NCBI GenBank assembly: GCA_015179025.1
Contig: WHUX01000014.1
Location: 124,001 to 188,000, forward strand
Source of the DNA: Terfezia claveryi
Taxonomy: Eukaryota > Ascomycota > Pezizomycetes > Pezizales > Pezizaceae
DNA length: 64,000 nt
Direction: 5' to 3'
The notes beneath the pieces were generated by a model, which saw only the letters and a list, made by a program, of their open reading frames with translations, was not told where the DNA came from and did no database searches. Position numbers and translations under genes: made by a program. Shown here piece after piece: positions 943 to 49,702 of the stretch (position 1 is the stretch's first letter; the number at the start of each line of letters is the position of its first letter).

Positions 943-1357
943 TACATATGTATGGAGTTGGTTTGAGGTAAATTGATAATGATTTTCCTTTATTTTGGGT
1001 CCCTGTTTTTTTGAGGGAATTTTTTGGTAACGGCACATCTGGGATTTTGGTTCTTTATAAGCACTACTACAACTGTATGTAGTCTTGACAATATGTCAAG
1101 TTGCATTCATGGGAAACGTGCCAGGGTAGTGCCTAAACCGTGGAGGCTATTGACACGTGTGCGGCTGGGAATTGGTTGTTGAAGCCCTGAAGTTTTATGT
1201 TTTACAGCGATAGTACATATACCTTTCATGCTTTTACTTGTTCATATTTATTGTTATTTGCCAATAGCAAATATAGTACTGATCCTTTCCAACTTCATTG
1301 TTCGCGTAAATATCTAGCCCACGGGATTACGACTGTACCCTACGTAGCATACCTAGC

Positions 1358-1387
1358 TCTTTCGAGGGGCTTGTGCCAACCAGACTA
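1358..1387 (-). repeat. TAGTCTGG micro-element, 30 bp, with 10-bp flanking duplication
   Basis: The 30-bp block ends in GTGCCAACCAGACTA and lies between exact direct repeats CATACCTAGC at 1348-1357 and 1388-1397. It sits in the left arm of foldback copy FB-B1. It matches the copy at 23848 almost base for base, including the start TCT and the core CGAGGGGCTTGTGCCAACC. Confidence 0.75.
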
Positions 1388-2144
1388 CATACCTAGCATA
1401 CCCTTATATACTTTTCTCCCCGAGCTCCTTCATAGATACTTAGCTATATGTATGTATCATTGAATTTAGTCTGTAGGTAGGGTGGATGAATCACACGCTC
1501 CTATAGCTATACCGTACCATAGACTTCAGCTGCGATTCTATATCTAATGTATCATGTATGATTTGCTCTATTGGTCTATACACTGCTTGATGGAGGCATG
1601 CTTTAAATTACGTGCTCCTATACAGTAGCCATACCTTGGTTTGATGCGCTTCCATAGCTAGTAATCCCGGTGTTCCCCATTTCATGTAGCCGCTCCTATT
1701 TATTCTATGTCTAAACTAATGTAGTATATATTTTCGCATAGTTTGTGGGTGTAAAGTATTCGAGTAAACCTATGTACGGTGTTATGAACTTCATAGTGAG
1801 ATCTTACCATGTGTATAAACACCACTAGATGTACAAATTGAGTTAATACCAAAGAGAGAGAGCACGTACGTGATCATTAGCAGATGAAGTACTTTACAAC
1901 GGCCATCTCTAGATATGTTATGATTAGACATCTATATATTTTGGTGCTATGAACGGAGTATATTCTACTAAGGCAATATATCATTGGGAACACAACTACC
2001 TACCGGCAGCGCATGCTTGGTCAGCCAGGCTTGGGCGAAGTATACGCAACTGTAGCTACGGGAGTGCATCAAAACCATCATGTTGGAATTACCCTCGGCC
2101 CATGATCACTAGCTAGAATAGGACAGTTTGAATTCCGCGGTAGG

Positions 2145-2158
2145 TAGTCTAGTTGGCA
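2145..2158 (+). repeat. TAGTCTGG micro-element, 14 bp, with 9-bp flanking duplication
   Basis: TAGTCTAGTTGGCA (one mismatch to the family end) is flanked on both sides by CGCGGTAGG at 2136-2144 and 2159-2167. Confidence 0.65.
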
Positions 2159-2900
2159 CGCGGTAGGAAACAAGGGTAAGAGCAAGGATCCCAAAGAGGC
2201 CGGTCTCAATTAGGGAAAGAAGGATATAACGAGCTGGAAATGTCGAAGGAAAGGAAGAATTTTTCTTTAGAGTACTAGGACCATAAGCAATAAGCCTTAT
2301 AGCGATATCTAGATAGCTCTCTACTTTGAATATACACACGCAATCATCTTCACGATTCTTTCGCTAGTTACATAACCTCGTAATCTTACACATCAAACCC
2401 AGTCAAGCCAGACTAGGTGTGGCTATAGGAGCGCGTGGTTTAAGACATGCCTCCATCTAGCAGTGTATAGAGCAATAGAGCAATCATACATGGTACATTA
2501 GCTATAGAAGCGCATGAAGTCTAGAGTATAGCTATAGGAGCGCGTGAATGAATAGATTTAGCGGAGCATCCCTGGAACCACAAGCCTACTACAAGAGTAT
2601 TGGGAGATATCGTATCGCGTAGAGAAAGAGGATGTGTAGAATATGTCGAGTATACTTATTGCGCGCGATGCGCTGGGTACTTAATCTGAGTAGGTATGTT
2701 GCGTGGGTGTACGGAGTACTGTGCGGGATAATCTTACTTTAAGTATAGATGCTACGCAGTGAGACGGGATAGTGCATGAATGGACGCGTGTATGAACGGT
2801 TTTCCCGCATAAAGAAGGGGCGTATGCACAGAGTCACGCCCAGCAGAGAGTGTGGTACCTAGTGTTGTACCAGTACCTAGTAGTGTTTATACCCCTTGGA

Positions 2901-3557
2901 AGTTCGGACTTACCCTGAACTGCAAAGTACCTGGAATCTAGAAATTGTAGTAATAATGAACCTCCACTCATTGGATTCACTATGCATTCTTCCTCGGGCA
3001 CTAGAAGTAATAAAGGGTACTGGCACCTTACAACTAAGTTAGTCTAGTTAACCTACACTCAAGTTCATTTACTAGCATTATCAATAGACGTTTTTGTTGC
3101 ACGTTAGTTCTAGAATTTAAGTCGGTCTTTCAATTCATACATGTACAATCACTAGCAAGTTTCCGGTTTATTTATAATATGAATATAACAGACAGATCCG
3201 CTCATAATTAAATAACAGGACAGCTCAATAGGAAGGTATTACACTAGTCTAGTTGAGTCTTGCTGCTGAGTAAGTTACCTTGGCGTCATTACACAAAGAG
3301 TTTCGCAGTTTCATTTCTTGACGGTTACTAATTCAGTGAACCTCAGGCTCACTGATCCATCTCTCGCCACTCACATCCATTTACGAGCGTTCGGTTAACA
3401 TAACCAGTACCTGTTCATCACTCTTTACTCCTCACTATCAAGGCCGCCCATCCTCGCAGTTTTCCTCTTCAAAACTCTGTTCTAGGGTCGCTGTCGCGTC
3501 GCGTATTCCGAGACACCGAAGAATTCCGATAGCGTTTTCTCCACCGACATACCAGCA
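2901..3557. other. Intergenic region upstream of the NAB2-like gene
   Basis: No gene or recognisable repeat is seen in this AT-rich stretch. It should hold the promoter and 5' UTR of the gene starting at 3558. Confidence 0.5.
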
Positions 3558-10956: not shown

Positions 10957-11610
10957 CCCCAACCCGAAGTAGATTAGAATTAGATACAGATACTAAAGCT
11001 ACAGGAGGGTATTGGTATTTTCAAAGAGGGAAATAAGCGTAATGCAATAAAGAAAAGGAGGTATAGTGATGTATATCATTTGAATACAGATACCCGTTCT
11101 AGTTTTGGGAATGTAGGGGGGGGGAATAAGGGTGCATGGTTGGGTTGATGGGGTTGTTGTGGTTAATGGTTGGTGAGGTAATTGCCGGCGGGAAATGTGT
11201 TTGGCGGGCGCTCTATACGCGGTGATGGTTTATGATACAGATTACTGCGTGAAGACAAGGCAAAACACACACACACACACACAGAGAGAGAGAGCGTTAT
11301 TTCCATAATAGCATGTATGGTACAGTATTGTTAGCTATACCAATCCGTCTAGCCGAACATCATTGTTGAACTAGTCTGGTTGGCACAAGCCCCTCGTAGC
11401 TTGTGCCAACCAGACTATTGTTGAACCTGTACTATATTTATGCCATATTTTCACCCCGCTTCATGCTTGAGTATACCAGGAAGTAAGTTCAGGGTAATGA
11501 GTTGTATCGGTTACAATTGAGCTGACATAAAAAAAGGGGGGCTATATTCAATTCACGAAATCAAACCCAACACCTCATAAGCTTTTTCTACAGAAACTAT
11601 AGCTAGATCT
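10957..11610. other. Intergenic region with AC/AG microsatellite
   Basis: Contains the 3' flank of TGS1, an (AC)n(AG)n microsatellite at about 11262-11294, and the complete micro-element at 11372-11417. The OCT1 breakpoint lies just to the right. No further coding exons of OCT1 are present here. Confidence 0.6.
11372..11417. repeat. Complete TAGTCTGG micro-element: 46-bp hairpin with 9-bp flanking duplication
   Basis: The left arm TAGTCTGGTTGGCACAAG and right arm CTTGTGCCAACCAGACTA are perfect reverse complements of 18 bp, separated by the 10-base loop CCCCTCGTAG. TTGTTGAAC occurs immediately on both sides (11363-11371, 11418-11426). This is the clearest two-ended member of the family and the best model for its full structure. 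Confidence 0.85.
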
Positions 11611-14404: not shown

Positions 14405-14435
<31 letters not shown>

Positions 14436-22904: not shown

Positions 22905-23847
22905 CCGGTTGGAAATATGATGCGATATGGCAGTGTTGGATAGACGCTGTGTACTGTACACGAGAATAGCGTGTGACGGGTTGTACTCTCTCTTATACTC
23001 AGGCTGTTTCTCGACTCTGGATCTTATTTCTGGCGTATTCAAGTAATTATTGTTGGAATGAGTGACGATCGACGACAGGACCTGCGGATCAATAACCAAG
23101 CGGATCAATAACCAACAATACCCAGGGAATTCTGGGCAGTGTTATTTCGCCTGAGAAAGACGTTGAAGCAGGCGGAGTTATGTCCGGGTTTCCTCTGCTT
23201 TTCTGTTGTTGAAGGCGTTTGGTGTGGGTAATATTGCTCGAGGTGGTGTCGTAGAAGCGGCACTCTACAAGGACAAGCTGGTAAGTCCCCCCTAGTTCTT
23301 GTGAATAAGTAATGCTAGCTAGAGGTAATCAGCCATTGCCAGACTGGAAAACGATGCTTTTCTATGAATATAATGTAAGTATTGGAGATTCTCAAGTTGA
23401 GATCAAATATCATGGCTGATATTCAGCCACCTAAGGGTCTGTGCACTAGTATGCACATATGCATGTTGATCAGCACCAGTTTTGTTCTGGAACCGGTGCA
23501 TAAAGATCACGTATACAAAGGGACAACAGACGGACAACATAACCGTTATAACGTCCATCATATGCCTGGTCCCCGTGTGGCTGTCCTAGGTACATACAAA
23601 TTAGTCTCGAGTTCGGATTGAAGGTTATGGTGTACATGACGAGGCATCACGGGGTGGGGTAGTGCAACAACCTTAGGAGAAAACCTAGATCCGCCGAACC
23701 CAGCAGCCGATTTTAGTCTGGTAGCCGACACTGTTGCGTACTCGTCTAGTCTGGCTTGCACTAGCCTCTCACCCAGACTATCGTCCGACCAGATCTCGCT
23801 TATCCACAATGCCTGCGTTGGGACAAACTTATAGATGATCTCATGCC

Positions 23848-23876
23848 TCTACGAGGGGCTTGTGCCAACCAGACTA
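23848..23876 (-). repeat. TAGTCTGG micro-element, 29 bp, with 11-bp flanking duplication
   Basis: TCTACGAGGGGCTTGTGCC plus AACCAGACTA lies between exact repeats GATCTCATGCC at 23837-23847 and 23877-23887. Confidence 0.75.
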
Positions 23877-24713
23877 GATCTCATGCCATTTATAGAGCGA
23901 TTTCAACGACCATGAGTTGTGATCATTCAAATTGTCCTCTTTCGAAGGGTACTGTGCCAACCAGACTACCAAATCTCATATCTACCAACTATAATGTAAT
24001 TCGACCTAGACCCAAAAATGGCCCCTTTTTAGAACCATGAAAAACAAATGAAAAACAAATGAAAAACAAACTATCAATAGTGTTAACTTATCTAGCAAAC
24101 ATAACCGAGTGCGAGTAAGGATGACGTTGAGCAATTAGCTCTCAAAAATGACTTAGGGCCCCAGTGAGACATGAGTGATATGTACAGTATCTATCACAAT
24201 AGATTGAGCGCTGTTCTAATCCGAACTAAGCACAACAATAGAGATATCGATATATTGGCCGGGGAATTGGGCCAACCAATCGATATACATTGCCTGACTA
24301 TGCTATGTACAAGATAGAAAACTCATCAATATTTGGTGTACCAACCCTCATAGCAGGCTTGTGGGAATCTCTTTCTCGTGCTTCTTCCAAACATTCAGCT
24401 ATTCTCTTTTTAAGGCACGATACTACTTTTTAACAGCCTGTGGTCCACCGGGAAAAGAAGCAAGGATAGGAAACTTCTGGTGCAAACTTTAAGATCTGGA
24501 GTGCAGATGTATGTGCTGCTGTTAACTTAAGCCTCGGTTTAGGAATCCACTTTGATATCTTTACCCTTTAGATATCGACTTAAAGTATGGGGATGGACTT
24601 CCACCAGCTTCCACTATCTTCTGATATAGAGCGGGCTTTTATAATGAGCGATCTCTTTAATGATCTCGATAATCTTACTTCCCCTTGCTTCTGTAATTTT
24701 AGGGGGTCGACCC

Positions 24714-24723
24714 AACCAGACTA
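24714..24723 (-). repeat. TAGTCTGG micro-element, 10 bp, with 9-bp flanking duplication
   Basis: AACCAGACTA is flanked on both sides by GGTCGACCC (24705-24713, 24724-24732). It is the shortest member with a full duplication. Confidence 0.6.
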
Positions 24724-26017
24724 GGTCGACCCCAGCGTGGAGCATTATCTGCATAACCCGAGTTCTTCATGTAAATTCATAGGCCTACCGTCGACTTATT
24801 CCGCCCAGCCGATGCCCAATCGCTTTTAATACTCCACTCAATGTGCCATGGTCGTAGTCTTATTTACCACTCCTGTATGCTAGCTGCATGGTGGCACTGC
24901 ATATTATGCATGGAGGGGTCGCGGATTTTTTTGGTATGCAAATCAATGGCCATGAGCTCGCCGAAGTGAGTCTCTGACGTTCCCACCAACGTCTATGCTA
25001 AAGAAAAGGGCAAGCAGAGGCCCAGCCGGATTTCTACATTGTCCCGTATCTTAGCGGGACCATAACGAGTCCCGCCCCAGAGGGACTTGAAGCTTTCTTG
25101 ACGGAGAGACAAGGAGACGGGATACAAGTATATCGATTGGGGCCTAATTTTGAGAAATTTTTGGCAAGAAATTCAAATACTCGTTCAAGATGAATACCCA
25201 AAAACGCTCGAACGTATTAAGTAGCTTTGTGGAGAAGGCAGGGGGAAGCAACCAGGAAAAGCTATCTCCCTACCTATACTATGTTCTTGATCTTCAACGG
25301 CCAGGTACCGTCAGATTAAGATGCCACTCATGGATGGACTGAGCAAATTGCGATATCACGGCGTACAGTCTAGCGGGGGGTTGTGCCAAAAAGAACTAAG
25401 GGACAATTAAGACTCTGCGAGGGGTAGTGCAACCAGACTAGGGTAGGAGGCGAGCAACAGTAAAGGCAAAACCCATTTTGAGTCGAATAATGCCAATCTG
25501 TATGCGATGCATAGGCATTGCATATGCAAGATTCCCAAACCGGAAGGAGGAAAAGACTTGGTGTGCCTCTCTATAATCTATGTTGTGCCAACCAGACTAG
25601 CTAATAATATGCTTCAGCTAGATAGCGGCATTAGGTATTTGTTACTACAACAAAGCGCCATGACTTGGAGAAAGGAAGGATTCTTGCCTTAGCTCAAATT
25701 GCGAAAGCAGTTGGCAGGCCATGGCAAACAGTTAGAGACGTTCTAGTGGGGTGTGAAACTTCCTCTTTTGTCGGTGTGGCCATTTCCACTTTCAGCACTC
25801 TTGCCTCTGCAGCCTGGAATTTGTCCGCAAACAGCACACGTGAAACAGCAATGTTGCTTTGCACTGGGGCCAGAACACGTTTAGTGCAATTAGCAATGAC
25901 ACAGCAAACAACAGAAGGATTTGCTCTATTATGGCAAACAACTCGATGTCGATGTACATTTTCGGCCTGGGGCAGAAAATCCGATAGGACTGGTCGCTGA
26001 TAAAGATTGAAATAGCT

Positions 26018-29554: not shown

Positions 29555-29578
29555 GAGGGGCTAGTGCAAGCCAGACTA
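29555..29578 (-). repeat. TAGTCTGG micro-element, 24 bp, split from its right flank by foldback FB-A
   Basis: GAGGGGCTAGTGCAAGCC plus AGACTA. On its left is ATGTTAAG (29547-29554). Its right flank is now foldback element FB-A, but directly after that element stands ATGTTTAAG (31390-31398). Without FB-A the two would bracket the micro-element as a near-perfect duplication. Confidence 0.6.
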
Positions 29579-31386
29579 CCCTTGCAAGCCTACTAGTGAG
29601 CAGCCACCGTCTAGTGCACACCCCTGCAAAAACCCCTGCAACAGCGTCTCCAGCCACAACTCGTGAGATATCATGAGCATAGTGATTCTGACTAAATACA
29701 TATCTATGAAAATGAGTACGCTCTATAACATGGTTACGCTCACATCCCACCAAGATCAACTGAAAACCCAATATTCCCCTTTCCAACATGACCTTCCCAA
29801 AGACCCACCCCCACCCTCTCAACCACTCGTATAGGCCAAGTACCTAGCGGGTGAGCCTATGACGACTAGAAGGTCATTTTCTGGTATCTATATTCATGTC
29901 ATAACAGCCTCTAGGGCAGCAGCCGCCAATATGACCAAAATTTATACAATCTACAACAGCGCTCCAAAATAAACTATTTTCAGAATTAACTAACTTACTT
30001 TATATATGCTAGTCTGAACTCTCCACCTTCCCCTTCTGCAACCTGCCCCTCTACAGCATTCTCAATCACTACGGAGAGGTCCCCAATTGCTCTAAAAGCT
30101 CCAATAGCTCCAATACTGCCTCCCTTCAAGAACTATCCTCCTAACAGCTACTCCCTCTACCTATACACCAAATATTGCACAAATAGGCCTATAACAACTA
30201 GGAGACCTATGCCTAGCATCTACCTCCAGCACTGAAGGTGGAGTGTGCAAAATGGTAACAATGGAAGGCCTCAATTCGGGGTACTAATCTCCCAAATAAG
30301 CAATTCCGAGAGCTATTATCCAATTAACCAAATACACCTTATTTATGCCCTCCTAGATCTGCCTGATCCGAACTCTCCTCCAGAGCTTTAGCACCCTCGT
30401 AGGGGTCTCTAATACTAGTAGCTCTGGAACTCCAATACCCCCCCCCCTAATTCTGGGCTCCAATAGCCGCTTTTATCACCTTTCTCGAGGCATTTTTGCA
30501 ACCCACCCAAGCATTACCAATACCAACGCAGAACAGTTGGTAGAGCACTGAGTTAAATACCCGGTTGAGTGCTATATAGGTTGGCACTAGGCTGGACACT
30601 AGGTTGGACGCTAGATTGGGCGCTGCCTATATAGTCCGGTTGGAACAAGAACGCTATAGTGGATACTAGCTAGATAGTAGGTCAGGCACACCAGGCTGAC
30701 GTTAGACTAATGCTCGATTAATCAGACTATGCTCGCCTACTGGCGGGTACTTAGATATTGGGAAATATCGATGATGGGGAACAAATGGTTGAAATGAGGG
30801 GGTTGCAACAACCTCAGAAACCCCCCAATTACAAGCGACCCATGAAGGCTAAAGAGGGGGTATTGGAGCTTTTAGAGCTATTGGAGGCCTCTCCGTAGTA
30901 ATTGAGAATGCTGCGAAGTGGTGGTTATAGAAGGGGGAAAGGCTAGGGTCCAGGATAGCATAGATAGAGCAAATTTAGTAAATTCTTAAAATAGCTCGTT
31001 TTGGGTTTTTTTTGATTGCATACCATTCTATCATATTCAAGGCTGCTGCCCTAGAGGCTATTTTGACATGAATATAGATACCAGGAAATGACCTTCTAGT
31101 CGTCATTGGCTCACCGGCTGAGTACCTGGCCTATACGGGTGGTTGAGGGGGTGGGGGTGGGTCTTCGGGGAGGCCATATTGGAAGGGGGGGATATTGGTT
31201 TTCACTTGATGTTGGTGGGATGTGAGCATAACCATATTGTAGAGCGAACTCGTTTCTATAGATATGCATTTAGCCAGAATCACTAGGCTCCTGATATATC
31301 ATGAGTTGTGGCTGGAGACGCTGTTGCAGGGGTTTTTGCAGGGGTGTGCACTAGACGGTGGCTGCTCACTAGTAGGCTTGCAAGGG
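29579..31386. mobile_element. Long-inverted-repeat (foldback) element FB-A with TA target duplication
   Basis: Terminal CCCTTGCAAGCC (29579) and GGCTTGCAAGGG (ending 31386) are reverse complements, and TA flanks both ends (29577-29578, 31387-31388). The inverted arms run about 545 bp each (to about 30120 and from about 30845) with moderate divergence. The 0.7-kb centre has no transposase frame and contains loose repeats of CTAGGTTGGAC type near 30560-30640. TA duplication and size suggest a non-autonomous Tc1/mariner-type element. Confidence 0.75.
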
Positions 31387-31553
31387 TACATGTTTAAGAT
31401 ACAACACTATACCACTCTTCTACTAGACACACACCTCGCTACTTGGCATGACTCTATGCAAAGGCCCCTTTTTTATGCCAGACTAACAACCCTACCAGCA
31501 TACCCAGCATACCCAGCAACCGTGCCAAACTACCAGCAACCCAGATAGCCAGC

Positions 31554-31568
31554 TAGTCTGGTTGCAAT
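31554..31568 (+). repeat. TAGTCTGG micro-element, 15 bp, with 9-bp flanking duplication
   Basis: TAGTCTGGTTGCAAT lies between ATAGCCAGC at 31545-31553 and 31569-31577. The neighbourhood is rich in CAGCATACC words, so part of the flank match could be local repetition. Confidence 0.55.
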
Positions 31569-31897
31569 ATAGCCAGCATAGTCTCGGCACCCGACCCTCG
31601 AGTTTGGCATATAGCCAGCATAACCTGTATAACCCTCTTAACGAGGGGCTAGCTACTGTATAACCGGCACCAGCATACCCGCCCCTAACTGATGATACCC
31701 TTATTACCAGCTACGGTAATAAGCTGATTAGTCATGTACGGACTAGGCAGAGCATGTAGTTTAGACAGTGATGCTCTCAGAGGAGCATCACAGAGACATA
31801 CACGAGATGAGCACATTCCGACATTCCTGAGTTCCATCAGGTTATGAAGCCCTCTTATTGTTGCTAGAAAAGACAGACCACACCCCTTTACTACATC

Positions 31898-33347: not shown

Positions 33348-33417
33348 CTAACCAGACTAACCCGCCCCCTTGCGCCAACCAGACTAACCCGCCCCCTAGT
33401 CTGGCTTGCACTAGCCC
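33348..33417. repeat. Cluster of three TAGTCTGG micro-elements with ACCCGCCCC duplications
   Basis: From left: the remainder of a micro-element (TAACCAGACTA once the copia element is removed), ACCCGCCCCC (33360-33369), TTGCGCCAACCAGACTA (33370-33386), ACCCGCCCCC again (33387-33396), then TAGTCTGGCTTGCACTAGCCC (33397-33417; head given here in 20-mer TAGTCTGGCTTGCACTAGCC plus C). ACCCGCCCC also stands left of the copia element at 31677-31685. Confidence 0.65.
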
Positions 33418-34788
33418 AGGAGCATACCCGCGCCCATCCCAGCACACTACGCAGCATACTCAAATTATCGCGCGCATAGCATAGCATACGCAGCATACCC
33501 AGCATATCCTACCCGGCATACTCTACACACTCCTTTTCCTCTACGCGATGTGATATCTCTCAGTGCTCCTGTAGTAGACTTGTGCTTCAGGGGTCCGCTA
33601 AATCTGTTCACGCTCCTATGCTTTACATTACGCGCTCCTATAGCTATACCAGTACCTAGACTTCATGCGCTTCCCTAGACCTGTTCCTATAGCTAATATA
33701 CCATGTATAATTGCTCCCTTACTCTATCCACTCCTATGCCTAGGGAGGCATGCTTTAATTTACATGCTGCTATAGTTATCCGTTGGTTTGATACGCTTTA
33801 TAGTTACAATCCTGGTTCAGGGTAACTGGTGTTTCCCTATTTCATGCGGCTGCTCCTATGGCATTTGGTATCTTTAATTATGATGTCTAAACTACTGTAA
33901 TTTATTATTTTCGTATAGTTTGTGGGTGCAAGGTGTCAGATTAAACCTATGCACAGTGTTGAATGAACTTCATAGTGAGATATTACCATAATACCATACT
34001 CCGCGAATAAAAATCACTAGAAGTACAAGTTGTGTTAATACTAACACAGAGAGCACATACATGATAATTAGCCGAAAGAGAAAGTATTTAGAAGAATCAT
34101 CTCTAGAAGAGGGTTAGTGCAACCAGACTAGTACAGAGTATATTCTACTATAATAGGCAATCTATCGCGGGGAACACAACTACCTACCGGCAGCGCATGC
34201 CTGGTCATAAGCCAAGAGCCACAGACCTGAGCGAAGATTACCCTGAAGCGCGATTGTAGCTACGGAACCGCATCAAACCAACGGATAGCTATAGCAGCAC
34301 GTAATTTAAAGCATGCCTCCCTAGGTATAGGAGTGTATAGAGTAAGAGAACAATCATACATGGTATATTAGCTATAGAAACAGGTCTAGGGAAGCGCATG
34401 AAGTCTAGGTACTGGTATAGCTATAGGAGTGCGTAATGTAAAGCATAGGAACGTGAACAGATGTAGCGGACCCCCCCCGAAGCACCAGTCTACAGGAGCA
34501 CTGAGAGATATCACATCGCGTAGAGAAAAAGGGGCGTGTAGGGTAGGGTATGCCGGGTATGCTGCGTATGCTATGCGCGCGATGTGCTGGGTAATTTGAT
34601 TATGCTGTGTAGTGTGCTGGGGCGGGTATGCTGGTGCCGGTTATACAGGTTATGCTGGCTATCAGGGTTGCTGGGTATGCTGTAGGGTATGTTGGACGCA
34701 TGTTAGTCTGGCATAAAAAAGGAGCTTTTGCATATAGTCATGCCAAGCAGCGAGGGTGTTGGGTCTAGTAGAAGAGTGGAACTCTGTA

Positions 34789-34804
34789 TCGTCTGGTTGC
34801 ACTA
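34789..34804 (+). repeat. TAGTCTGG micro-element, 16 bp, with 9-bp flanking duplication
   Basis: TCGTCTGGTTGCACTA lies between AACTCTGTA at 34780-34788 and 34805-34813, within the right arm of FB-B copy 2. Confidence 0.65.
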
Positions 34805-34971
34805 AACTCTGTACGGAGTATAGTGTTGTATCTTAAATATGTTCCAAAGGGCATTTTGCTGTAGTCCGTGTTACCCGGAGGGCATTATTAAAGGTTTTCT
34901 CGTCTGTAAACTGACAAGGCTCCTTGCACTAGCCCTTACGAAAGTAGTTTTAGACCTACCGGTAAGTTCCG

Positions 34972-34986: not shown

Positions 34987-36093
34987 AGTTCCGGCAACGG
35001 TTGGCCGCGGGAGGCAGGACTAGCGTAAGGTACTAGAGGGATTTAGCTAGCTTATCTTGTTATTGTTAGGTCTATCGTTACTAAGCAAATATATACCGCG
35101 GGAAAAGGTAGCGAAGAGGTTTACTGTAGCACCATCGAACCTTCATTGCCCTATGGCGGCAACCACAGCGACAGCAGCAGCGGTGCTTCGCCCATTTTGA
35201 TACGCAATACATTTAAGATATCTGCGCGAAAGGCAGACAAGCTTGACTTTGTCTTCATGTGAAAGTATGTTCGGATGCTTGATATCGATGATTGTAAAGT
35301 GGTAATTTGGGCTTGTTCGACAGTACTAGCTGTAACGGTGTAAGGAAGATTTTGATCAAAAGAAGCCATATCTCAAAATTTAATGTATTGTGATAACTAT
35401 ACAAGGCTGGGGAGTGAGTGGAAGATGGTAGTCTTGAGGTTTATGTAGACCTCAAGGTTAGGGCTTTTTTTTTAATTTACTAACAAATGGTTGCTATGGT
35501 AACCTCGGAAGTTGTCGGCTTACATGGCAACTTAGACTTCGACTACGTAGGTACCGGTACTTGTAACAGGCGTGCTTGCTACTACCCTGCTCCCAAGACC
35601 TCTGGCAGTGCAGGATAAAGCCATGTGCTTTCCGGTTTCCCGACCTATCTCACAAAATCTTCTAGGATATGTCTCAGATTCCCTTTCCCGGTCATGCATT
35701 GCGTGTAGTTTTCCTGTTCCACTTTAAGACCTCTCCATACCCCGTTCTACCACCTTCCTGCTCGCCTGTCTCTCCTATTCCATGCTGCTTGACTCTCAAT
35801 GATTTCGCCTTTGTATTCTACACCAAGGAGAGCGCCGACATGGAATAAAAAAGCCTTTGGGTTAAAATCCGTGAACTCTTAAAGATGAGATTGGGAAAAT
35901 ATTGTACTAGTGCTATTGCTACAAGTACTACCTACATTCCACGTGCTACATTCTTAGCCCGCTATAGCTAATGTTGCTGTCGCTGCCAATGATGTCGCAC
36001 TTAACATAACAATTAGAACTTGCAGCAGATAGTTTGCGAAATCCCTCTAAAAATACTTTGTAGCTGCATTATGTCGAGCCGCTACCCTGTCCC

Positions 36094-36109
36094 TGTGCCA
36101 ACCAGACTA
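36094..36109 (-). repeat. TAGTCTGG micro-element, 16 bp, with 8-bp flanking duplication
   Basis: TGTGCCAACCAGACTA lies between CCTGTCCC at 36086-36093 and 36110-36117. Confidence 0.65.
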
Positions 36110-36755
36110 CCTGTCCCCAGCAATCTCTCCATCCCAGACGGTCGCTACCACTGCAAACCATCCCCCGCCTACTCCTCCCATCTCTAGCTTACTGCCATCG
36201 GTGTAGAAAAACGGGCAACCATATTGATTCTCAATATCATCAATCCTCTTTTGACGATTTCTCATCCAACCGGAGGGTCAACGACTGGGGTTTCTAATAA
36301 GTCCTGACGGCATCGTCCCCCTAGACTGAGCTCACCCTGCCTCTGCCTCAAAATATCTCCTCCGTATTTGGTACAACCTCCCCCTCTTGGTATTATTGTC
36401 TCCGAGGAGGGTCTCCCCAATCGCCAATGGATCCCTCATCATCTTGATCGGCAGCCTCGCTTGTGCGGCTTCAATAGCTAGGCGTGGTGGTTCCACTCCT
36501 GCAATCTGGCTGACCAACTCCCTTCTCGCTCCTCTTGTCGCTCCGGTGCATTTTCGCAGAGCCTGGTATTATTGTTGAACGAATGGATATCCGGTGGTGT
36601 CACAGGCCCTGTCATTGGTCAGGCACAACTTCAATTGTCCAGGGTGATTGTCTCACAAGACCTACGTCGTTGTTTTATGAGCGAAACTAAATATAATTAC
36701 CCGTATCTTTAGTAATTGAACGACCCAAGTCATGCAAGGTACGATACCGATATGC

Positions 36756-40011: not shown

Positions 40012-40139
40012 GATTTAGGTGAAAAGTGCTTAGTTTGGTGGCAGGGCTCAAGAGTAGGTACGGTGAATAAAGGCGGTTTCTAATTGCAGAGTGCACTAAC
40101 GCTAATTATATGTAAATCCGGTGATTGAACAGGGATCTC

Positions 40140-40440
40140 CGCATGGTATCTTCCATACTGTCCGCTATTGTATATTCAACCTCTTCATCAGAATCCAACG
40201 TATCTTCCATTTGCCATGGCCCAACTGTTACATCTGGTAAGCCACGAATATAAAGCTTTCCATCTTCAGTCCCATCAGGAGATATTGAGATACCTGCCTA
40301 CTTGAAAGACTTAATAATACTTTCTTTCTTTTCTGTATGTAACCAAAGCCATGCTTTTCCAACTACATTTGTTGTAAGAATACAATAACCAACACTTCAG
40401 CAGTTTCTTCTAACTTTTCTTCCAGGGCTTGTAGCTGTAG
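40140..40440 (-). pseudogene. Possible transposase C-terminal remnant
   Basis: Minus-strand pieces read ISISPDGTEDGKLYIRGLPD and an acidic DTLDSDEEVEYTIADSMEDT, with stops and frame changes between helices containing QALEEKLEE. It resembles C-terminal tails of fungal DDE transposases and lies beside the pogo fragment, but the match is by eye only. Confidence 0.3.
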
Positions 40441-40709
40441 ATGCCAACATTATTATTGTTGAAGGATTGAACATTAATCCTATCAAGTACATACCTACCA
40501 GTATCTTTTTCCCCTATCTACATACAGGTATCATATCGGAAGGGTCTCAAGCAGAACACGCTAATAATTTTACTATCTTATAAAGGAAAAGCAGCAGCAT
40601 AGATATCTAGCTGTTTTAGAATGCAGAAAAGGGGCTCGTCATGACGAGGCATACCATATCACCGCTATACAATATCACCGCTATACAATATCACCGTCAA
40701 CAAATCAAA

Positions 40710-41153
40710 ATGTCTACTGAAGCCATGATGCCAATCTCTGCTGATGCTCTCCACTACCGCACTATATTGTTCGAGCTCAGCAAACCAGTTACAATACCCC
40801 CCCAAATATTTGACGAGATATGGCCAAGAGCTGCTGCAAGCTTATGGTACAGTACGTGTTCAGAAATATGAGTACAGACTTCGAAAAAGCAAGAAGTCAA
40901 GCGTAGCTCAAGTTGCGGATACCGATGGTAAGGTTATTAAACGCCGGCAAAGCAGTATTCGAAATGCCAACCTTTGCAATGTCCGAATTAAGGTCTTGCA
41001 TCTAGTTGATGGCACAGCTGTTACCATTGAGCGCTTAGATGAACATACCCATACTCATGATATTGAGGAGAGCTTCCAGATAAAAAAACCAAGTATATTA
41101 GTAGGATATATCAAGTCTGAAGCAGCCAAAAATTACTCTGCTTCTCAGATTTA
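40710..41153 (+). pseudogene. MULE transposase N-terminal fragment, copy 1
   Basis: Begins MSTEAMMPISADALHYRTIL. It needs a frame change near 40800-40850 to reach YEYRLRKSKKSS, IKRRQSSIRNANLCNVRIKV and the HTHDIEESFQIKK block typical of the FAR1/WRKY-GCM1 DNA-binding N-terminus of Mutator-like transposases. It ends where the inverted segment begins. No DDE catalytic domain. Confidence 0.6.
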
Positions 41154-41650
41154 GGAAGGGTCTCAAGCAGAACACGCTAATAATTTTACTATCTTATAAA
41201 GGAAAAGCAGCAGCATAGATATCTAGCTGTTTTAGAATGCAGAAAAGGGGCTCGTCATGACGAGGCATACCATATCACCGCTATACAATATCACTGCTAT
41301 ACAATATCACCGTCAACAAATCAAAATGTCATATCTTTTCTATATAACGAATTCATTAGCTATATTATACCTCATTAATGAAGAGTCATACAAACGTTTT
41401 CAAAGATGAGCCACCAAGCTCTTTCAGCCGCTCAGCGCCTTCATGTGTACCAGCACTATGGATAGCATGGTAAATCTGGGAAGGGTCTCAAGCAGAACAC
41501 GCTAATAATTTTACTATCTTATAAAGGAAAAGCAGCAGCATAGATATCTAGCTGTTTTAGAATGCAGAAAAGGGGCTCGTCATGACGAGGCATACCATAT
41601 CACCGCTATACAATATCACCGCTATACAATATCACCGTCAACAAATCAAA

Positions 41651-42179
41651 ATGTCTACTGAAGCCATGATGCCAATCTCTGCTGATGCTCTCCACTACCG
41701 CACTATATTGTTCGAGCTCAGCAAACCAGTTACAATACCCCCCCAAATATTTGACGAGATATGGCCAAGAGCTGCTGCAAGCTTATGGTACAGTACGTGT
41801 TCAGAAATATGAGTGCAGACTTCGAAAAAGCAAGAAGTCAAGCGTAGCTCAAGTTGCGGATACCGATGGTAAGGTTATTAAACGCCGGCAAAGCAGTATT
41901 CGAAATGCCAACCTTTGCAATGTCCGAATTAAGGTCTTGCATCTAGTTGATGGCACAGCTGTTACCATTGAGCGCTTAGATGAACATACCCATACTCATG
42001 ATATTGAGGAGAGCTTCCAGATAAAAAAACCAAGTATATTAGTAGGATATATCAAGTCTGAAGCAGCCAAAAATTACTCTGCTTCTCAGATTTACCATGC
42101 TATCCATAGTGCTGGTACACATGAAGGCGCTGAGCGGCTGAAAGAGCTTGGTGGCTCATCTTTGAAAACGTTTGTATGA
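41651..42179 (+). pseudogene. MULE transposase N-terminal fragment, copy 2
   Basis: Same sequence as copy 1 with rare differences (for example TATGAGTAC versus TATGAGTGC, giving Y to C). It runs on about 25 residues further (YHAIHSAGTHEGAERLKELG) to a stop at 42179. The catalytic core is missing, so the element is non-autonomous. Confidence 0.6.
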
Positions 42180-44091
42180 CTCTTCATTAATGAGGTATAA
42201 TATAGCTAATGAATTCGTTATATAGAAAAGATATGACATTTTGATTTGTTGACGGTGATATTGTATAGCGGTGATATTGTATAGCGGTGATATGGTATGC
42301 CTCGTCATGACGAGCCCCTTTTCTGCATTCTAAAACAGCTAGATATCTATGCTGCTGCTTTTCCTTTATAAGATAGTAAAATTATTAGCGTGTTCTGCTT
42401 GAGACCCTTCCATCATATCGACGTTGTTGCCACAAGTTGTGCATGTGGCTGCAGATGTCTTAGAAACCGACATGGGCCTTTATTCACCAGTTTTCCCGGT
42501 ATTCTGGTATAGCAAGGATTCCGATACAACGATAGCATGTATTAAAACCAGACTAAGGTAGTACAGGGCATACTTGATACCGTAGACTCTCGCGAATTGC
42601 AACAATACCGTAGAGACTCGGGTTATTCAGTATACAGTACGTATGCAATGTGAACGACATATGCGGGTTTCAGGATCTCACGAGACATGCCCGTGCTCAC
42701 TGTTATGTGAACATCTGAGGTTAAAATGTACTGTAATTATCCATACCTAATGCTATCAAGGAAACATCTACAAGTGCTGTTCGGAAATATAGCTGCAAAT
42801 GCCCAGGTGGTTTCTGGAGGCAGACGTCCAAAACTACAACTCGGTATGGGCATAAACCAAAGCCACTAACTCAGAGAGTGTTCCAAGTATCATTGTGCTC
42901 AGATATCAACTTTACTGCATAAGCTTGACCTATGTCTGTAAACTGACAAGGATCGTTATACACAACCAGACTAGCGGTACTTAGTATCACTTACTGCGTA
43001 ACGATCAACAACCACGTGACGATCGACACGGGCTCCCCTGCCACATGCAGTAACATTCTAATATCTCCATCAATATATCCAATATGAATGTAGTAAGAAC
43101 AATGATTATAGGATAAAAACACTCGAAAAACCCAAATTTAACATCTCCAACCCGCTCCAATCTACCCTGAACCTTCTATAGCACCTAAACCCTTAATAGG
43201 CCCTATGACCACCCCTCTAGCATAACCACCCACCCCACACCCCCCACGCCACCCACAACAGCTACTCTAGCAGCCATAGGTTCTCCAGAGGTCTACTCTG
43301 TAAGCCATATTAGTATAGACTCAAGCTGCTCACTGTATATAGAACTAGACGCACTGCAAACTGTATTCTCTATATAACCTATATAACTTTTGCAAGCTAG
43401 CCTCCTCGGTATCGAATTTCAGCTTTTTTGAGCGATTCAATCAAGCTATATTTATGGTACTGCAATCTTAATATCTTAGGGTGTCCTTCTATGCAGTTTC
43501 TTAAGCCCAGTATGTTCTGTAGCCCCTGTATTATGCAAATCTTTGACCAAGCTCCATATATCTCAGTATGCAATCTACTCGGCCTCAAGGGTTATAGCAA
43601 TCATAATACTAAGTCGCTCGCATTCAATACAGGCTTAGTCGAGACTTTTAAAGGCCCTTGATCTGCTTCTATGACTGGGGCTTCACCTTTATGCCATTGT
43701 TAAGTATTTTGAGGGTTTGGGTACATTTTACAACCTCCGCCAGATAGCTTAATATTTTAGAGGAACTTGTGATCTGTGTGGGATTGCTTGTGAATAGGAG
43801 GACGCAGGAGTATTCACAACAACTTGAAGGAAGGCTAAGAGGTCTTAACCTAGTTGAGAGAAGTTAAGGGTAACTGAGATGCGTTGGGTGGAGGGGGGTC
43901 TGAGTACTACTATAGCCTGAAGTACCAGTACTACAGACTTGCACCAGCAGCGCAGCAGGGCCAGTACTGAATACAAGAATGTGGTGAAGGCGTCTACCTT
44001 GCGCTTTGGTGAATATAGTGCAATTGAAGCTCGAAATTGATAAGCTTCAATCCTAGAGCTGGTATAATGTACATCAGAAAGATTTTAGCTT

Positions 44092-44120
44092 GCGTTGTGT
44101 GCACGCCGTGCACACAACGC
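44092..44120. repeat. 29-bp near-perfect palindrome inside FB-C
   Basis: GCGTTGTGTGCACG, a single C, then CGTGCACACAACGC: 14-bp arms without mismatch. It lies just before a run of short open DNA in the element's centre. Confidence 0.9.
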
Positions 44121-44534
44121 CAATTTGCAAAACTCCGCGTTACAACAAGATCTCTCTCACATAACGCACTTCCTACAACGCTGATACTTACAATTCAATC
44201 TCGTCTCGCTCGCACTCTCACAATATGCAATCGGACGTTGTGTGCCCCATTCCTAACGTCTTCCTCTTCACACATCCGCTTCTAACACTCTTTCACCCAA
44301 CTCAACATTATGATTGCGAGCCTATTACTTGTGACCTTCAGAAGGCAGACTAGTCCCTCCTCACGTTGTGATTGCAAGCTCATTACCTGTAACCATCTGA
44401 AGGCACAATACCCCCTCCTCCCTGTTGTCATGGACACTGCACTTTTTTACTCTCGCACCTGCATTTTATGCATTTCCAAAAAGGTCTTGATTCTCATGAT
44501 AATATCTAAATCTAGCTAAATAAACAACTATGAT

Positions 44535-45225
44535 CGCACCCCTAAAATCACCGTGCAAATAGCCCATATATCCGACCGTGCAAATAGCCCTAGAAATCAG
44601 CGTGCAAATAGCTCATATATCTGCGTGCAAATAGCTCATATATCTGCGTGCAAATAGCCCTGGAAGTCAGCGTCCAAATAGCCTAGAAGTCAGCGTCCAA
44701 ATAGCCCTAGAAATCAGCGTGCAAATAGCCCATGTATCCGACCGTGCAAATCAGCCTGGAATCCACCGTGCAAATAGCCCATGTATCCGACCGTGCAAAT
44801 CAGCCTGGAATCCACCGTCCAAATCAGCCTGGAATCCACCGTCCTAATCAGCCTGGAATCCACCGCCCAAATCAGCCTAGAATCGAGCGAGCAAATCAGC
44901 CTAGAATCGAGCAAGCAAATCAGCCTAGAATTGAGCGAGCAAATCAGCCTAGAATTGAGCGAGCAAATCAACCTGGAATCGAGCAAGCAAATCAGCCTAG
45001 CATTGAGCGAGCAAATCAGCCTGGAATCGAGCGAGCAAATCAGCCTAGAATCGACCGACCAAATCAGCCTGGAATCGAGCGAGCAAATCAGCCTAGAATT
45101 GAGCGAGCAAATCAACCTGGAATCGAGCAAGCAAATCAGCCTAGAATTGAGCGACCAAATCAGCCTAGAATCGAGCGACCAAATCAGCCTAGAATTCAGC
45201 GCGCAAATGAGCAAGAAAATGAGCG
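44535..45225. repeat. 24-bp minisatellite inside FB-C
   Basis: Units of the form CAAATCAGCCTAGAATCGAG+CGAG repeat about 18 times from about 44800. They are preceded by related but shorter GTGCAAATAGCC(C)-type units from 44535. Because 24 is divisible by three, frames stay open on both strands (plus 44732-45313 reading NQPRIERA repeats; minus 44714-45385 reading SRLICSLD repeats). I regard these as repeat artefacts rather than genes, though a repetitive element protein cannot be excluded. Confidence 0.85.
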
Positions 45226-45379
45226 AGCACACAACCTCCGTACAATGGTGCAAATAAGCATAGAAATCAGTGTATACCGGTATTCTGAAGCAATGACAGG
45301 AAAAAAACTCTAAGTCCCAGGCGGCCACACTTTTGAAGTAGGGTACCCCCGCGCCCCCTATTCTCACGAGCCCCCTAAT

Positions 45380-45720
45380 GTCCAATCCAGTTCCTGCGGT
45401 CTCAGAACCAGTTGCTGCGGTCTCAGAACCAGTTCCTGCTGTCTCAAAACCAGTTCCCGCTGTCTGAGGACCAGCCCCCGCTGTCTAACAATCAGCTAAT
45501 AGCTGGTGTTGGAATTATCCCTGTGGCGTCGGGTTTGAGCTCCTCCAGGTATTGGCACCACCTAGTACGGTGGAGGAAATAGCTGCATGTGGTAAACATG
45601 AACATCGACTGGATTGTGTCAGTAAATAGACTGGATCCGGTCGGTAATAGACTGGATTGTAGTGGTCCGATAGTATTGTAGTGGTCCGATAGGATTGTAG
45701 TTGTCCGATAGAATTGTAGG
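45380..45720. repeat. Two further short tandem arrays inside FB-C
   Basis: First array: CCAGTTCCTGCGGTCTCAGA-type units of about 24 bp, five copies at 45385-45490. Second array: AGTGGTCCGATAGTATTGT-type units of about 21 bp, three to four copies at about 45655-45718, preceded by ACTGGATTGT repeats. Confidence 0.7.
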
Positions 45721-46796
45721 TCTGGTAGAGAAAGTATTAGTAGTGTTTAGCTAAAGGGTCAGGAATACTTAAGATATAGACAATGGACATGATGTGTAGA
45801 GAGAGCTTGTTAGGAACAAATTGGAAGAAAATATGGCATTGGGAACGACGTTGAGCAAACTCATAAAGAAAAATGAGAATGTGCACGCAATGTAGTTGGT
45901 AACGCATATAAGGAGGAACTGCACTACAGAGCATTGGCAATGCAGACAACGTCAAAAAGACAAATTGCCGTTGTAATGCTTGCGGGCGCGCTGCAACGTA
46001 AGAAAATTTTTGCTGATGTATACATACTCCTAAACCCTCAAAATACTTAACAATGGCATAGAGGTGAAGCCCCAGTTGTAGAAGCAGATCAAGGGCCTTC
46101 AAAAGTCTCAGCTAAGCCTGTATTGAATGCGAGCGGCTTAGTATTATGATTGCTACGACCCTTGAGGCCGAGTAGGTTGCATATCGAGATATATGGAGTT
46201 TAGGTCAGAGATTTGCATGATGCAAAGGCTATGGAATATGCTGGACTTAAAATCCTGTATAGAGGGGCACCCTGAGATATTAAGATTGCAGTGCCGCAAA
46301 TATAGCTTGATTGAGTCGTCCAAAATAGCTGAAATCCGATACCGAGGAGTCTAGCTTGCAAACGTTCTATAGAGTAATACAGTTTACAGTGCGTGTAGTT
46401 CTATATACAGTGAGCAGCTTGAGTCTATACTAATATGGCTTACAGAGTGGACCTCTGGGGAACCTATGGCTGCTAGTAGTAGTTGTTGTGGGCAGCATGG
46501 GGGGTGGGGTGGGTGGTTATGCTAGAGGGGTGGTCATAGGGGGTATTAAGGGTTTAGGTGCTATAGAAGGTTCAGGGTAGATCGGAGTGGGTTGGAGATG
46601 TTAAATTGGGTTTTTCGAGTGTTTTTAGCCTATATTCATTGTTCTTACTGCATTGATATTGCATATATTGATGGATAAATTGCAATGTTACTGCATGTGG
46701 AAGGGGAGCCATGTCAATCGTCACGTGGTTATCGATCGTTACGCAATAAGTGATACTAGAGTGCAAGGAGTGGTTTAAGTAGGCAAGGATTAGCTA

Positions 46797-47397
46797 CAGG
46801 CAAACCTGGCTATAACGAATGCCAAGATTCCGACCCCTTTCCTTCGTTATAGCCAGGTTTCGTTATAAGAAGATGTCACGTGCCAACGAGGGGTAAGGAG
46901 ATTTGTGGAGAAAAAAGATAGAATGTAGTCAATTTGTGTTCTTTCTGCTTCTGCTCGATAATATTGCTCAATTTACGCTCGACAATTGGCTGCAACCATA
47001 CTCTGACCTATCACTTTCTTAGTTTTTTATTAGAAGCTCTGCCTTTCTTTCTTGTCACTCTCATATTGTATTACATCTCGTATGTTCACTCTATTTTCCC
47101 TCTAGTTCCCTATTTTTGTCTATATATGTAGTTCCCTATTCCTGTATATCTGTCTAGTGTAGTGTCGTCAAGTAAGCCCTTCCATTTATTTTGTTAGCAC
47201 ACTACTAGTTTTACTATAGCCAATAAAATTTTGCTATGTTTTAATTTATTAGCCACGGAATTCTCTTCACTATCGTTATACCGATTAATTTCACTATAGC
47301 CAGGGTACTTTAGCTGCGTGCAAGAATGGTCTAACAAATCCCTTCGGTACAGCCAGTTTTTCAGTACGTCGAGTTTCACTATAGCCAGGTTTGCCTG
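46797..47397. mobile_element. Non-autonomous pogo/Fot-like element, 601 bp
   Basis: Perfect 18-bp terminal inverted repeats CAGGCAAACCTGGCTATA / TATAGCCAGGTTTGCCTG are flanked by the dinucleotide TA on both sides (46795-46796, 47398-47399), the target duplication of Tc1/mariner-pogo elements. CGTTATAGCCAGGTTTCG near 46845 is an internal third copy of the end. No transposase frame. Confidence 0.85.
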
Positions 47398-47532
47398 TAT
47401 AAGCTTCAATTCGATTAATTATTACACTGTCACGGCTACAAGGTCATATACCCATACCGTCAGTTGCTTTGCATCTGAAGCGGTGAATTTACGCCCCTTT
47501 AGCCCTGCCGCGCAACGCAACAAAAGGGAGCA

Positions 47533-48932
47533 ATGACTTTAACTCCATCGAAGAGGTCAGCCTTTCTGCCTCGTGAAGGTCAGTTAGTTCTTCTGATCAA
47601 CTCAATCCAACCCTCAAGCTCGCCTCGCCCCACCCCCTGTTATGATTCCATCCCCTACTTCACATAGATCAGACACTAAAACACTATAATAGGCATCACA
47701 CTAGACCCGATTCTCCTGTTTCTACGCCGCTTTACCCACCCCGTCCTCCTCCTTCCCCTCCTCGCTGTTATTCACCCACGTACATCTCCATATCTCACCC
47801 CTCTTCTTCCTCAATCGCTCCCACTCCCAACCTTATCCCCTGCCTGGATCAAGCGGCTAAGATTTCTGGCCTACCTCGGCCTCTTCCATCGCCTTAATGC
47901 ATTCCTCTCCAAAGGCTCACTGAATAACTGGGCCAAAGACGAGACATGGAACTGGGATAAAGAGGTCATTGTAGTCACTGGAGGTAGCGCGGGAATTGGG
48001 AAAGAGGTGGTGTTGTGGTTGAGCAGGGTGTTACTAGAGAGAGGCAAGAAGGGGAAAATAATAGTGTTTGATATTATGGAATTGGGGTATGAGGCTCGTA
48101 CGTAGCGTCTTCCCATGCTTTTTATATTCAAAGCATCATGCTGACAATTAAAACCTTGATAGCTGGGAATGTGTCTCATGTTAAGGTTGATTTGAGTTCC
48201 TATGAGAGTATTAAGTCTGCCGCGGAGTCTATCCGCTCCTCCCACGGGGCCCCAACAGTCCTCATCTCCAATGCCGGTATCTGCCTCGGCACACACATTC
48301 TCAATGCCTCCCCAGCCGGTCTTTCACTCCTCTTCAACGTCAATACCCTCGCCCAGTGGTATTTAGCTCAAGAATTCCTTCCCTCCATGATCGTCAGCAA
48401 TCATGGACACATAGTTACTGTTGCATCCGTTGGTGCATACGTCCAAGCTCCAAAAATGGTAGATTATAATGCGAGTAAAGCCGCCGCGATGAGCTTTCAT
48501 GAGGGACTGGGGATAGAGTTGAGGACGGTGTATAAGGCAGAAAAGGTGAGGACTACATTGGTCACGCCGGGTTATGTGAAGACTCCACTTTTTGAGGGGT
48601 ATAATAATACATCTAAATTTCTATTACCGGCGATGGAGCCGGAAACAGTGGGGGAAGAAATTGGGAAGGCGGTGTTGAGTGGGATGGGTGGGCATATTAT
48701 TTTACCGAGAGGCTATCATGCGATGACGGGGATTGTAAGTTGCTCATGAGCCCTGACCGGCGGTCTTATGAATTAACGTCTGGGGGTAATTGCTAACATG
48801 GGGTTGTGCGATTTACAGAGGGGCTGGTTCTCGTGGATTCAACTGAGGGTGCTGGCTGGAGCCAATAGAGTTATGGATGGGTGGAGGGGAAGGAGGGTGA
48901 TAGATCCGGATACCCACGAGAGGAAGGACTAA
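47533..48932 (+). CDS. Short-chain dehydrogenase/reductase (SDR), membrane-anchored
   Basis: An NAD(P)-dependent oxidoreductase of the classical SDR fold, resembling fungal members of the retinol/17-beta-hydroxysteroid dehydrogenase type. Four exons: 47533-47578, 47693-48097, 48163-48734 and 48819-48932. The N-terminus MTLTPSKRSAFLPREG continues across intron 1 into ITLDPILLFLRRF and a hydrophobic helix PVLLLPLLAVI, a likely ER or lipid-droplet anchor. The Rossmann motif is VVTGGSAGIGK, the NAG motif ISNAG, and the active site YNASKAAAMSF supplies Tyr and Lys with a preceding serine in VASVGAY. The last exon gives GWFSWIQLRVLAG and a basic tail ending HERKD. The fungal leader LPREG.TLD supports the 47533 start. 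Substrate cannot be told from sequence. Confidence 0.88.
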
Positions 48933-49702
48933 TAATTAAGACTCTCTCTTTCATGATCTCGAAGGAAAGGTAAGAATGGTACATCATGAGGGAACCAGCC
49001 ATGGACATGGGTTTTTTTTATATTTATATATATATATTTCGCGTAAACTTCTTTTGATTTGGGTTCTGCTTTTTGGATACCGTGATATGCTTGGATGTTT
49101 GTTTATATACGTATGAAAGGGTATGTAATACATTTGTATGTATTTTGTGTTGGAGAATTTTTTTTTTCTTCTTTTTTAATACAAACTCAGTACAATCTGC
49201 TACATTTGTTCCAAAGAAAACTGTTTTTCATGCCAACTGGCAGTAGGGGTACCCCGCTCCAATATTCCCCATCTCCTAAATTGGCCTATCTAGCTATTCC
49301 CGGCTAGCGAAGTGATGTGGTAGCCATGTGGGCAAGCCGGTAGGTCAGATTTGCCTATGCGGCATAACAAGTAGCTGCGTTGTGCGTGAGTCCTACGGAG
49401 CATGATATAGCATGAATTATACAGCTTCAAGGTCAGTCTGGTTGCACTACCGTACCCCTCTGTGATTAACCAGACGACTTCTGCGATCATAGGAGGGTGT
49501 TGTGCCAACCAGACTACCTCTGCGACTGTACTTCAAGGTACGGAGTAGGGTATAGTTATGTGGTATGCAAGTGGAAAGAGCTGGCATATGCAATATCTGC
49601 ATCGGCTGAAACAGCCACAAGCTTTTTCTTTTGCTGAGCCCGACCACTGACGTCTTACCTGACGACTGCAAAAAGAGCTTCACTTCACCTCACTGCCAAA
49701 CA
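48933..49702. other. Intergenic region with a nested micro-element pair
   Basis: 3' flank of the SDR gene, an AT-rich tract (49015-49045), the nested micro-elements at 49434-49530, and the MICOS gene promoter. No gene seen. Confidence 0.5.
49434..49530. repeat. Nested TAGTCTGG micro-elements, 97 bp outer and 30 bp inner
   Basis: The outer unit starts CAGTCTGGTTGCACTACCG and lies between CTTCAAGGT at 49425-49433 and 49531-49539. Inside, 49487-49516 ends GTGCCAACCAGACTA and lies between CTTCTGCGA (49478-49486) and CCTCTGCGA (49517-49525), which differ by one base. The inner 30 bp has the same length as the copy at 1358. Confidence 0.6.

Follow-up and report, generated by a model that had tools for sequence, protein, structure and literature searches.

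Short, mostly one-ended inserts with nine-base target duplications in the Terfezia claveryi genome may be scars of transposition

A 64,000-nucleotide stretch of the Terfezia claveryi genome (assembly GCA_015179025.1, contig WHUX01000014.1, positions 124,001 to 188,000; C46:124001-188000 in our numbering, hereafter the window) contains short inserts that share one end, the octamer TAGTCTGG, many of them bracketed by direct repeats of about nine bases, and raises the question of what these inserts are and how they arose. A first-pass annotation, made from the letters alone, offered three explanations: a micro-MITE (miniature inverted-repeat transposable element) moved by a Mutator-like transposase, stubs left by imperfect excision of a larger element, or a truncating retroposition process. 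We find that these are insertions in which the outer end is constant and the inner end varies, some having a second end joined on in varied ways; the target duplication, where present, is fixed at 9 base pairs (bp). With somewhat more confidence than doubt, we read them as scars of DDE-type transposition with a 9-bp stagger, from excision or abortive insertion, that were sealed by end joining with mostly one end left.

The assembly comprises 72.56 Mb in 794 contigs, and our statistics come from 308,829 bases of it (less than 1%), namely the window, C1:1-200000 and 13 further pieces of contig C1; 13 of these 15 stretches are only 3-6 kb long. The 13 pieces were chosen for containing the 15-mer TAGTCTGGTTGGCAC and therefore over-represent ends of 15 bp or more; the window and C1:1-200000 are unbiased. 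The octamer or its complement occurs exactly 28 times in the window, close to the 27 copies first counted by eye, and the earlier expectation of roughly two agrees with 100 dinucleotide shuffles (2.16, largest shuffle 6). About two of the 28 are thus expected by chance, and many of the 28 lie without a duplication. Genome-wide, we found 2,885 exact copies of the 15-mer (reversed control, 0) and 5,960 of the 11-mer TAGTCTGGTTG (control, 57). Subfamilies with this common end include TTGGCACAAGCCCC, TTGGCACAACACCC, TTGCACTACCCC and CTTGCACTAGCCCC. In the commonest, 19 of 21 occurrences of GTTGGCACAA are preceded by the exact octamer and 1 by a one-mismatch octamer. Allowing up to one mismatch, the octamer precedes GTTGGCAC in 44 of 51 cases, a set enriched by the choice of the 13 pieces, and CTTGCACTAG in 4 of 5. 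Ends also cluster in the window and C1:1-200000, lying less than 100 bp from the next end 16 times (two-ended forms included) compared to 2.0 at random and at most 7 in 2,000 random draws.

The first-pass annotation had staked its reading on flanking repeats being commoner than in randomised flanks, and they are. Among the 108 octamers in the sample, 74 agree with the consensus of a subfamily over 11 bases or more, with two-ended inserts entering twice; for inserts of 9-60 bp, a 9-bp repeat at the far insert edge is exact in 27 of these 74 rows and matches at 8 of 9 bases in 10 more, against 0.4 and 0.9 expected with swapped flanks. When all 108 octamers and inserts of up to 120 bp are considered, 28 rows have an exact repeat and 17 have one mismatch, compared to 1.0% and 3.2% at random positions of the same geometry. 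In the 28 exact rows the match extends beyond 9 bases by 0, 1, 2 or 3 bases in 17, 8, 2 and 1 cases, which fits a fixed 9-bp duplication with chance extension. The 68 octamers in the window and C1:1-200000 give longest exact runs of 9, 10, 11 and 12 bp in 10, 6, 2 and 1 cases (0.12, 0.07, 0.05 and 0.04 expected), and runs of 6, 7 and 8 bp in three cases each (1.28, 0.53 and 0.21 expected). Matches at 7 of 9 bases show no clear excess (7 versus 4.6 expected), suggesting that slow decay alone is insufficient to explain the ends that lack a duplication. Inspection of 28 duplicates by eye revealed no target consensus. The target duplication of about 9 bp typical of MULEs (Mutator-like elements) is present, at 8 of 9 or better, in 37 of the 74 rows, and these 37 ends also have the make-up of an excision footprint, with both duplicates and the remains of an end; Helitrons are defined by having no target duplication, so the inserts do not fit them.

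In a test of 45 rows, three loci proved to have a paralog that reads across the junction. At C1:65902 this paralog has AGCCTCTGT once and no interruption; at C1:152134, 24 bp are missing from it, equal to the insert together with a single duplicate, and the copy that remains differs by one mismatch. These 24 bp can be divided as 15+9 or 12+12. The third paralog, at C1:152612, comes close but is too diverged at the site to be clear. Judged by alignment to the first two empty sites, the inserts are true insertions. The paralog of C1:5604 has the insert too, in mutated form, which suggests that the insertion there preceded the duplication of the surrounding repeat. A stub without a far repeat, at window position 34130, has a 74% identical paralog with about 37 bp of other sequence at that place, a single case that fits a deletion at a joined break. 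It is hardly credible that the family is a collection of short repeats of separate origin in which the octamer recurs by chance or as a binding site. In its general form this idea is contradicted by the empty sites and by duplications far above controls, and the counts also lie far above controls. In its favour, 37 of the 74 ends have no duplication matching at 8 of 9, and the octamers at 31485 and 34704 belong to one repeat of about 115 bp. That repeat, which contains TAGTCTGGCATAAAAAAGG, forms an inverted pair at 31412-31524 and 34663-34779.

Within the window, all ten blocks that the first-pass annotation had described as bracketed by perfect direct repeats proved to be so, with repeats of 10, 9, 9, 11, 9, 9, 11, 9, 8 and 9 bp; the repeat at the 33370 block had been given as 10 bp and measures 11. 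The proposed size range of 10-97 bp needs amending at its upper limit, because the 97-bp block at 49434-49530 encloses a further insert with its own near-repeat and is a nest rather than one unit, although its 9-bp bracket holds. Where the repeat exceeds 9 bp, 1-3 bp can be assigned to it at the expense of the insert, as has been done in the coordinates below.

1358..1387, minus strand: one-ended insert, 30 bp, ending in the mini-hairpin CCTC-GAAA-GA; perfect 10-bp repeats at 1348-1357 and 1388-1397.
2145..2158, plus strand: one-ended insert TAGTCTAGTTGGCA, 14 bp; 9-bp repeats at 2136-2144 and 2159-2167.
11372..11417, no strand assigned: two-ended (palindromic) insert, 46 bp, read as ends of 28 bp and 18 bp joined; 9-bp repeats at 11363-11371 and 11418-11426.
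23747..23780, no strand assigned: two-ended insert of the CTTGCACTAG subfamily, 34 bp; 5-bp repeats only (weak), at 23742-23746 and 23781-23785.
23848..23876, minus strand: one-ended insert, 29 bp, ending in the mini-hairpin CCTC-GTA-GA; 11-bp repeats at 23837-23847 and 23877-23887.
24714..24723, minus strand: one-ended insert, 10 bp; 9-bp repeats at 24705-24713 and 24724-24732.
31554..31568, plus strand: one-ended insert, 15 bp; 9-bp repeats at 31545-31553 and 31569-31577.
33352..33359, minus strand: octamer of the third end in the 33-kb cluster; adjoins the same repeat as the next two inserts, own far repeat not found.
33371..33386, minus strand: one-ended insert, 16 bp; 11-bp repeats at 33360-33370 and 33387-33397.
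33397..33426, plus strand: one-ended insert, 30 bp; 9-bp repeat with 1 mismatch at 33388-33396 and 33427-33435; same target as 33371..33386, opposite orientation.
34789..34804, plus strand: one-ended insert, TCGTCTGG variant, 16 bp; 9-bp repeats at 34780-34788 and 34805-34813.
36094..36109, minus strand: one-ended insert, 16 bp; 8-bp repeats at 36086-36093 and 36110-36117.
49434..49530, no strand assigned: nest, 97 bp; 9-bp repeats at 49425-49433 and 49531-49539; inner 30-bp insert at 49487-49516 with 9-bp repeats differing by 1 mismatch.

At 33352-33435, three ends in both orientations thus share almost one common target repeat.

As first described, one end is constant and the other is cut off at varied points. 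In the window and C1:1-200000, and assuming a 9-bp duplication, inserts measure 10-18 or 25-46 bp where the duplication is exact and 9-15, 28-34 or 76 bp where it has one mismatch, with none of 19-24 bp among these 28 rows. The shorter class (9-18 bp) has its mode at 15, and the longer class (25-36 bp) often stops just past a mini-hairpin. Genome-wide, 1,929 of the 2,885 copies of the 15-mer have an A two bases past it; because the common subfamilies all have an A there, roughly 45% of ends probably stop at 15-16 bp. The motif CCTC is reached by 1,044 ends, and a 4-bp hairpin closed by GAGG 3-5 bases on follows in 200 of them (19%, versus about 1% by chance). Among the 100 of these 200 places that were listed, GTA forms the loop 40 times and its complement TAC never, GGTA 10 times, GAAA 5 times, TTT 5 times and AAA never, and ACA 13 times against 6 for its complement TGT. 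These hairpin and loop counts are not independent, because copies are related by descent. Mini-hairpins whose loops read GNA or GNNA, closed by C-G, are very stable in DNA. Folded as single-stranded DNA, three pieces that end in hairpins and one complement have computed energies that do not stand out from shuffles (z of -0.6 to -1.3).

Retroposition or single-stranded insertion of a hairpin molecule of about 31 nucleotides, with its 3' end ...GTGCCAACCAGACTA always kept and its 5' end truncated, would fit several of these features: one end does not vary, the other is cut back, lengths gather near 15 and 31 with none of 19-24, and the commonest loop occurs in one orientation among the places listed. 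The terminal hairpin of the 31-nucleotide form could on paper even prime its own extension into a full palindrome. We nevertheless regard this as very unlikely. The duplications of LINE/SINE insertions vary in length, whereas those here are fixed at 9 bp, and the constant end directly abuts the duplicate with no poly-A or simple-repeat tail. An exact 15|15 palindrome leaves no loop for self-priming, filler and joints that mix subfamilies (by eye) count against such a process, the folds are unexceptional and the window has no match in Rfam.

Two-ended forms are a few percent of ends. Pairs with arms of at least 15 bp number 46 in the genome when up to 30 bases lie between them (total up to 60 bp), any copies of one another included, and 18 with 31-60 bases between (total up to 90 bp); arms of at least 10 bp with 0-30 bases between (total up to 50 bp) number 178, although at least one of these, C1:16783-16827, is two separate stubs with repeats of 9 bp and 7 bp. 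The joints vary and include exact 15|15, long|15, an 18-base filler at C35 and, by eye, joints between different subfamilies (C1:725085, C157:168310 and C782). Near-perfect palindromes of 50-51 bp are present at C712, C2:632017 and C789, and three palindromes in the sampled DNA are flanked by 9-bp duplications, exact in two and with 1 mismatch in the third. Such palindromes, together with the ACA and TGT loops seen in both orientations among the 100 places listed, would be expected of true micro-MITEs of about 50 bp (arms of 24-25 bp, loop of 3-4 bases) that jump whole and soon lose most of one arm, a loss attributed to the instability of perfect palindromes. We consider this unlikely, since inverted repeats at both ends, as in a MITE mobilised by a MULE, are found in 46 pairs against 2,885 ends, and since the perfect duplications on many stubs would require arm loss that is near-immediate and halts at the far duplicate. 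A symmetric unit should also yield both members of each loop pair, yet in the same places GTA and TTT are one-sided (40 versus 0 and 5 versus 0).

With DDE transposases, a fixed 9-bp duplication requires a pair of staggered strand transfers; each event would then have involved two transposon ends, though mostly one remains. We infer a DDE enzyme, a chromosome break, end joining and a timing at entry or exit. A DDE-type, MULE-like transposase with a 9-bp target stagger would act on ends beginning TAGTCTGGTTGGCAC, and the inserted element would be excised or its insertion aborted. The chromosome would then be broken between the 9-bp duplicates, with short pieces of transposon end still on the broken sides, and end joining would usually keep one piece, of about 15 bp or of about 31 bp just past the fold-back hairpin; sometimes it would keep two pieces, add filler or lose the far duplicate. 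Taken separately, each route is less likely than not, with excision slightly ahead of abortive entry. Of the three explanations first offered, we therefore favour the stubs, because of the fixed 9-bp duplication and the two-ended forms with varied joints and filler, and widen them to abortive insertion; retroposition loses ground because of the fixed duplication and the exact 15|15 joint. A bolder possibility, quite unlikely in our view, is in vivo tagmentation, in which a transposase would insert unlinked, hairpin-capped end fragments (24-25 bp duplex, 3-4 base loop) pairwise 9 bp apart, breaking the chromosome, after which the hairpins would be opened near the loop, much as in V(D)J joining, and the break sealed. 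If true, this would account for the ends of about 31 bp past the loop, the one-way commonest loop, the mixed-subfamily joints and the missing parents.

Several observations weigh against reading the inserts as scars of transposition. The first-pass annotation proposed looking for an autonomous element with these termini, and none was found in the 308,829 bases sampled, where 13 of the 15 stretches span only 3-6 kb; neither do these contain facing end pairs longer than 46 bp with a 9-bp duplication (0-1 mismatch), and facing pairs longer than 60 bp show no clear excess among the 100 C1 ends listed of the 5,960. The 46 and 18 two-ended forms with 15-bp arms are few beside 2,885 ends, and 37 of the 74 ends have no duplication at 8 of 9 or better. 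The outer end is looser in other subfamilies: of 13 occurrences of GTTGCACTAC, 6 follow the octamer with 0-1 mismatch, 2 (window 28225 and 23668) resemble family members without the end, and 5 resemble other repeats. Bare tandem 9-mers, which we considered as scars without a stub, are only weakly raised (21, versus 15 for 8-mers, 8 for 10-mers and 13 for 12-mers) and are unconvincing as such.

In favour of the scar reading, the MULE domain has 21 matches in the genome, one of them, at C773:253600-260000 (L051; these 6.4 kb lie outside the sample), an open 541-aa frame matching MULE and SWIM between inverted, foldback-like arms of about 2 kb or more with tandem subrepeats. A further point against the scar reading is that this element has TAGTCTGGTTGG inside its arms, facing outward, and not at its end, its own ends lying beyond the fetched 6.4 kb. 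PF21787 (P-type transposase) has no match in the genome, nor did it have any in the control genomes. In a study of the MULE Muta1 in yeast, excision was about 90% precise when duplicates flanked the element, and the authors suggest a cut outside the terminal repeat (PMC5225508). No stubs of 15 bp would be expected from a MULE that leaves in this ordinary way, which also counts against our interpretation. The P element cuts 17 bases inside its end, and a P-element-like cut about 15 bases inside the end would leave such stubs.

Three long inverted-repeat elements in the window (29577-31388, 40538-42411 and 42982-46758) were rejected as parents, as their ends do not begin with TAGTCTGG. The first, of 1.8 kb, has 530-bp inverted repeats (85% identical) starting TACCCTTGCAAGCC. 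Its target was apparently the TA within a TAGTCTGG stub at 29578, another of the ends without a far repeat; with the element removed, the flanks of that stub can be read as resembling a duplicate with a one-base gap. Related inverted repeats lie at C1:99930-108008. In the 3.8-kb element at 42982-46758 the inverted repeats are 740 bp long, 89% identical, and start about TAGTATCACTTA; a related copy lies near C1:10006-11663. Inverted and direct repeats of 177-616 bp, more than 99% identical and with 16-bp tandem arrays, make up 40538-42411, and a minisatellite whose period is 24-72 bp, and which has more than one open frame, occupies 44580-45229. On C1 pieces, tRNA-like sequences with an unclear anticodon (L043 9006-9093 and 9729-9817; L046 1419-1506) lie in a dispersed repeat that is possibly a tRNA-derived SINE, and the C1:152612 stub sits in a copy of it. 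Protein domains matched were RTG2_C, an RNA cap guanine-N2 methyltransferase and Med14, a set that suggests an ascomycete.

If the inserts are scars, the genome stores thousands of records of transposition and break repair from an element not seen in the sampled DNA, and, as every duplicated site implies what its empty site should look like, break repair could be studied over thousands of natural events. As the inserts are probably below the usual size for repeat finders, similar families may go unnoticed elsewhere. The open-licence literature searched, judged by title and start of abstract, holds no match to thousands of mostly one-ended 9-36-bp scars with a 9-bp duplication and no visible parent; the strings TAGTCTGGTTG and CAACCAGACTA occur in open-licence papers, none of them on transposons by title.

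Footprints and lone terminal repeats are already known in kind. The Drosophila P element leaves footprints in which target duplicates likewise surround a few end bases. Fungal mitochondrial double-hairpin elements are also short, hairpin-forming and dispersed, whereas the inserts here are nuclear, with a target duplication fixed at 9 bp. Hairpin opening in V(D)J joining leaves P nucleotides, short fold-back additions beside the joined end; the likeness is an analogy only. The cut-and-paste footprints of mariner/Stowaway elements share duplicated target bases around a transposon-end remnant (PMC4561436), but the inserts here are usually one-ended, reach 36 bp and number thousands of copies with no parent found. 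MULEs and MULE MITEs share the 9-bp duplication, and MULE transposase domains are present in the genome; the inserts differ in their 9-50 bp length and mostly single end, and any sequence-level link to a MULE is tentative. Foldback elements of the Galileo type leave single terminal repeats in the genome much as single ends are left here, although those terminal repeats are long and internally repetitive (PMC3573991), while the pieces in T. claveryi measure 9-36 bp.

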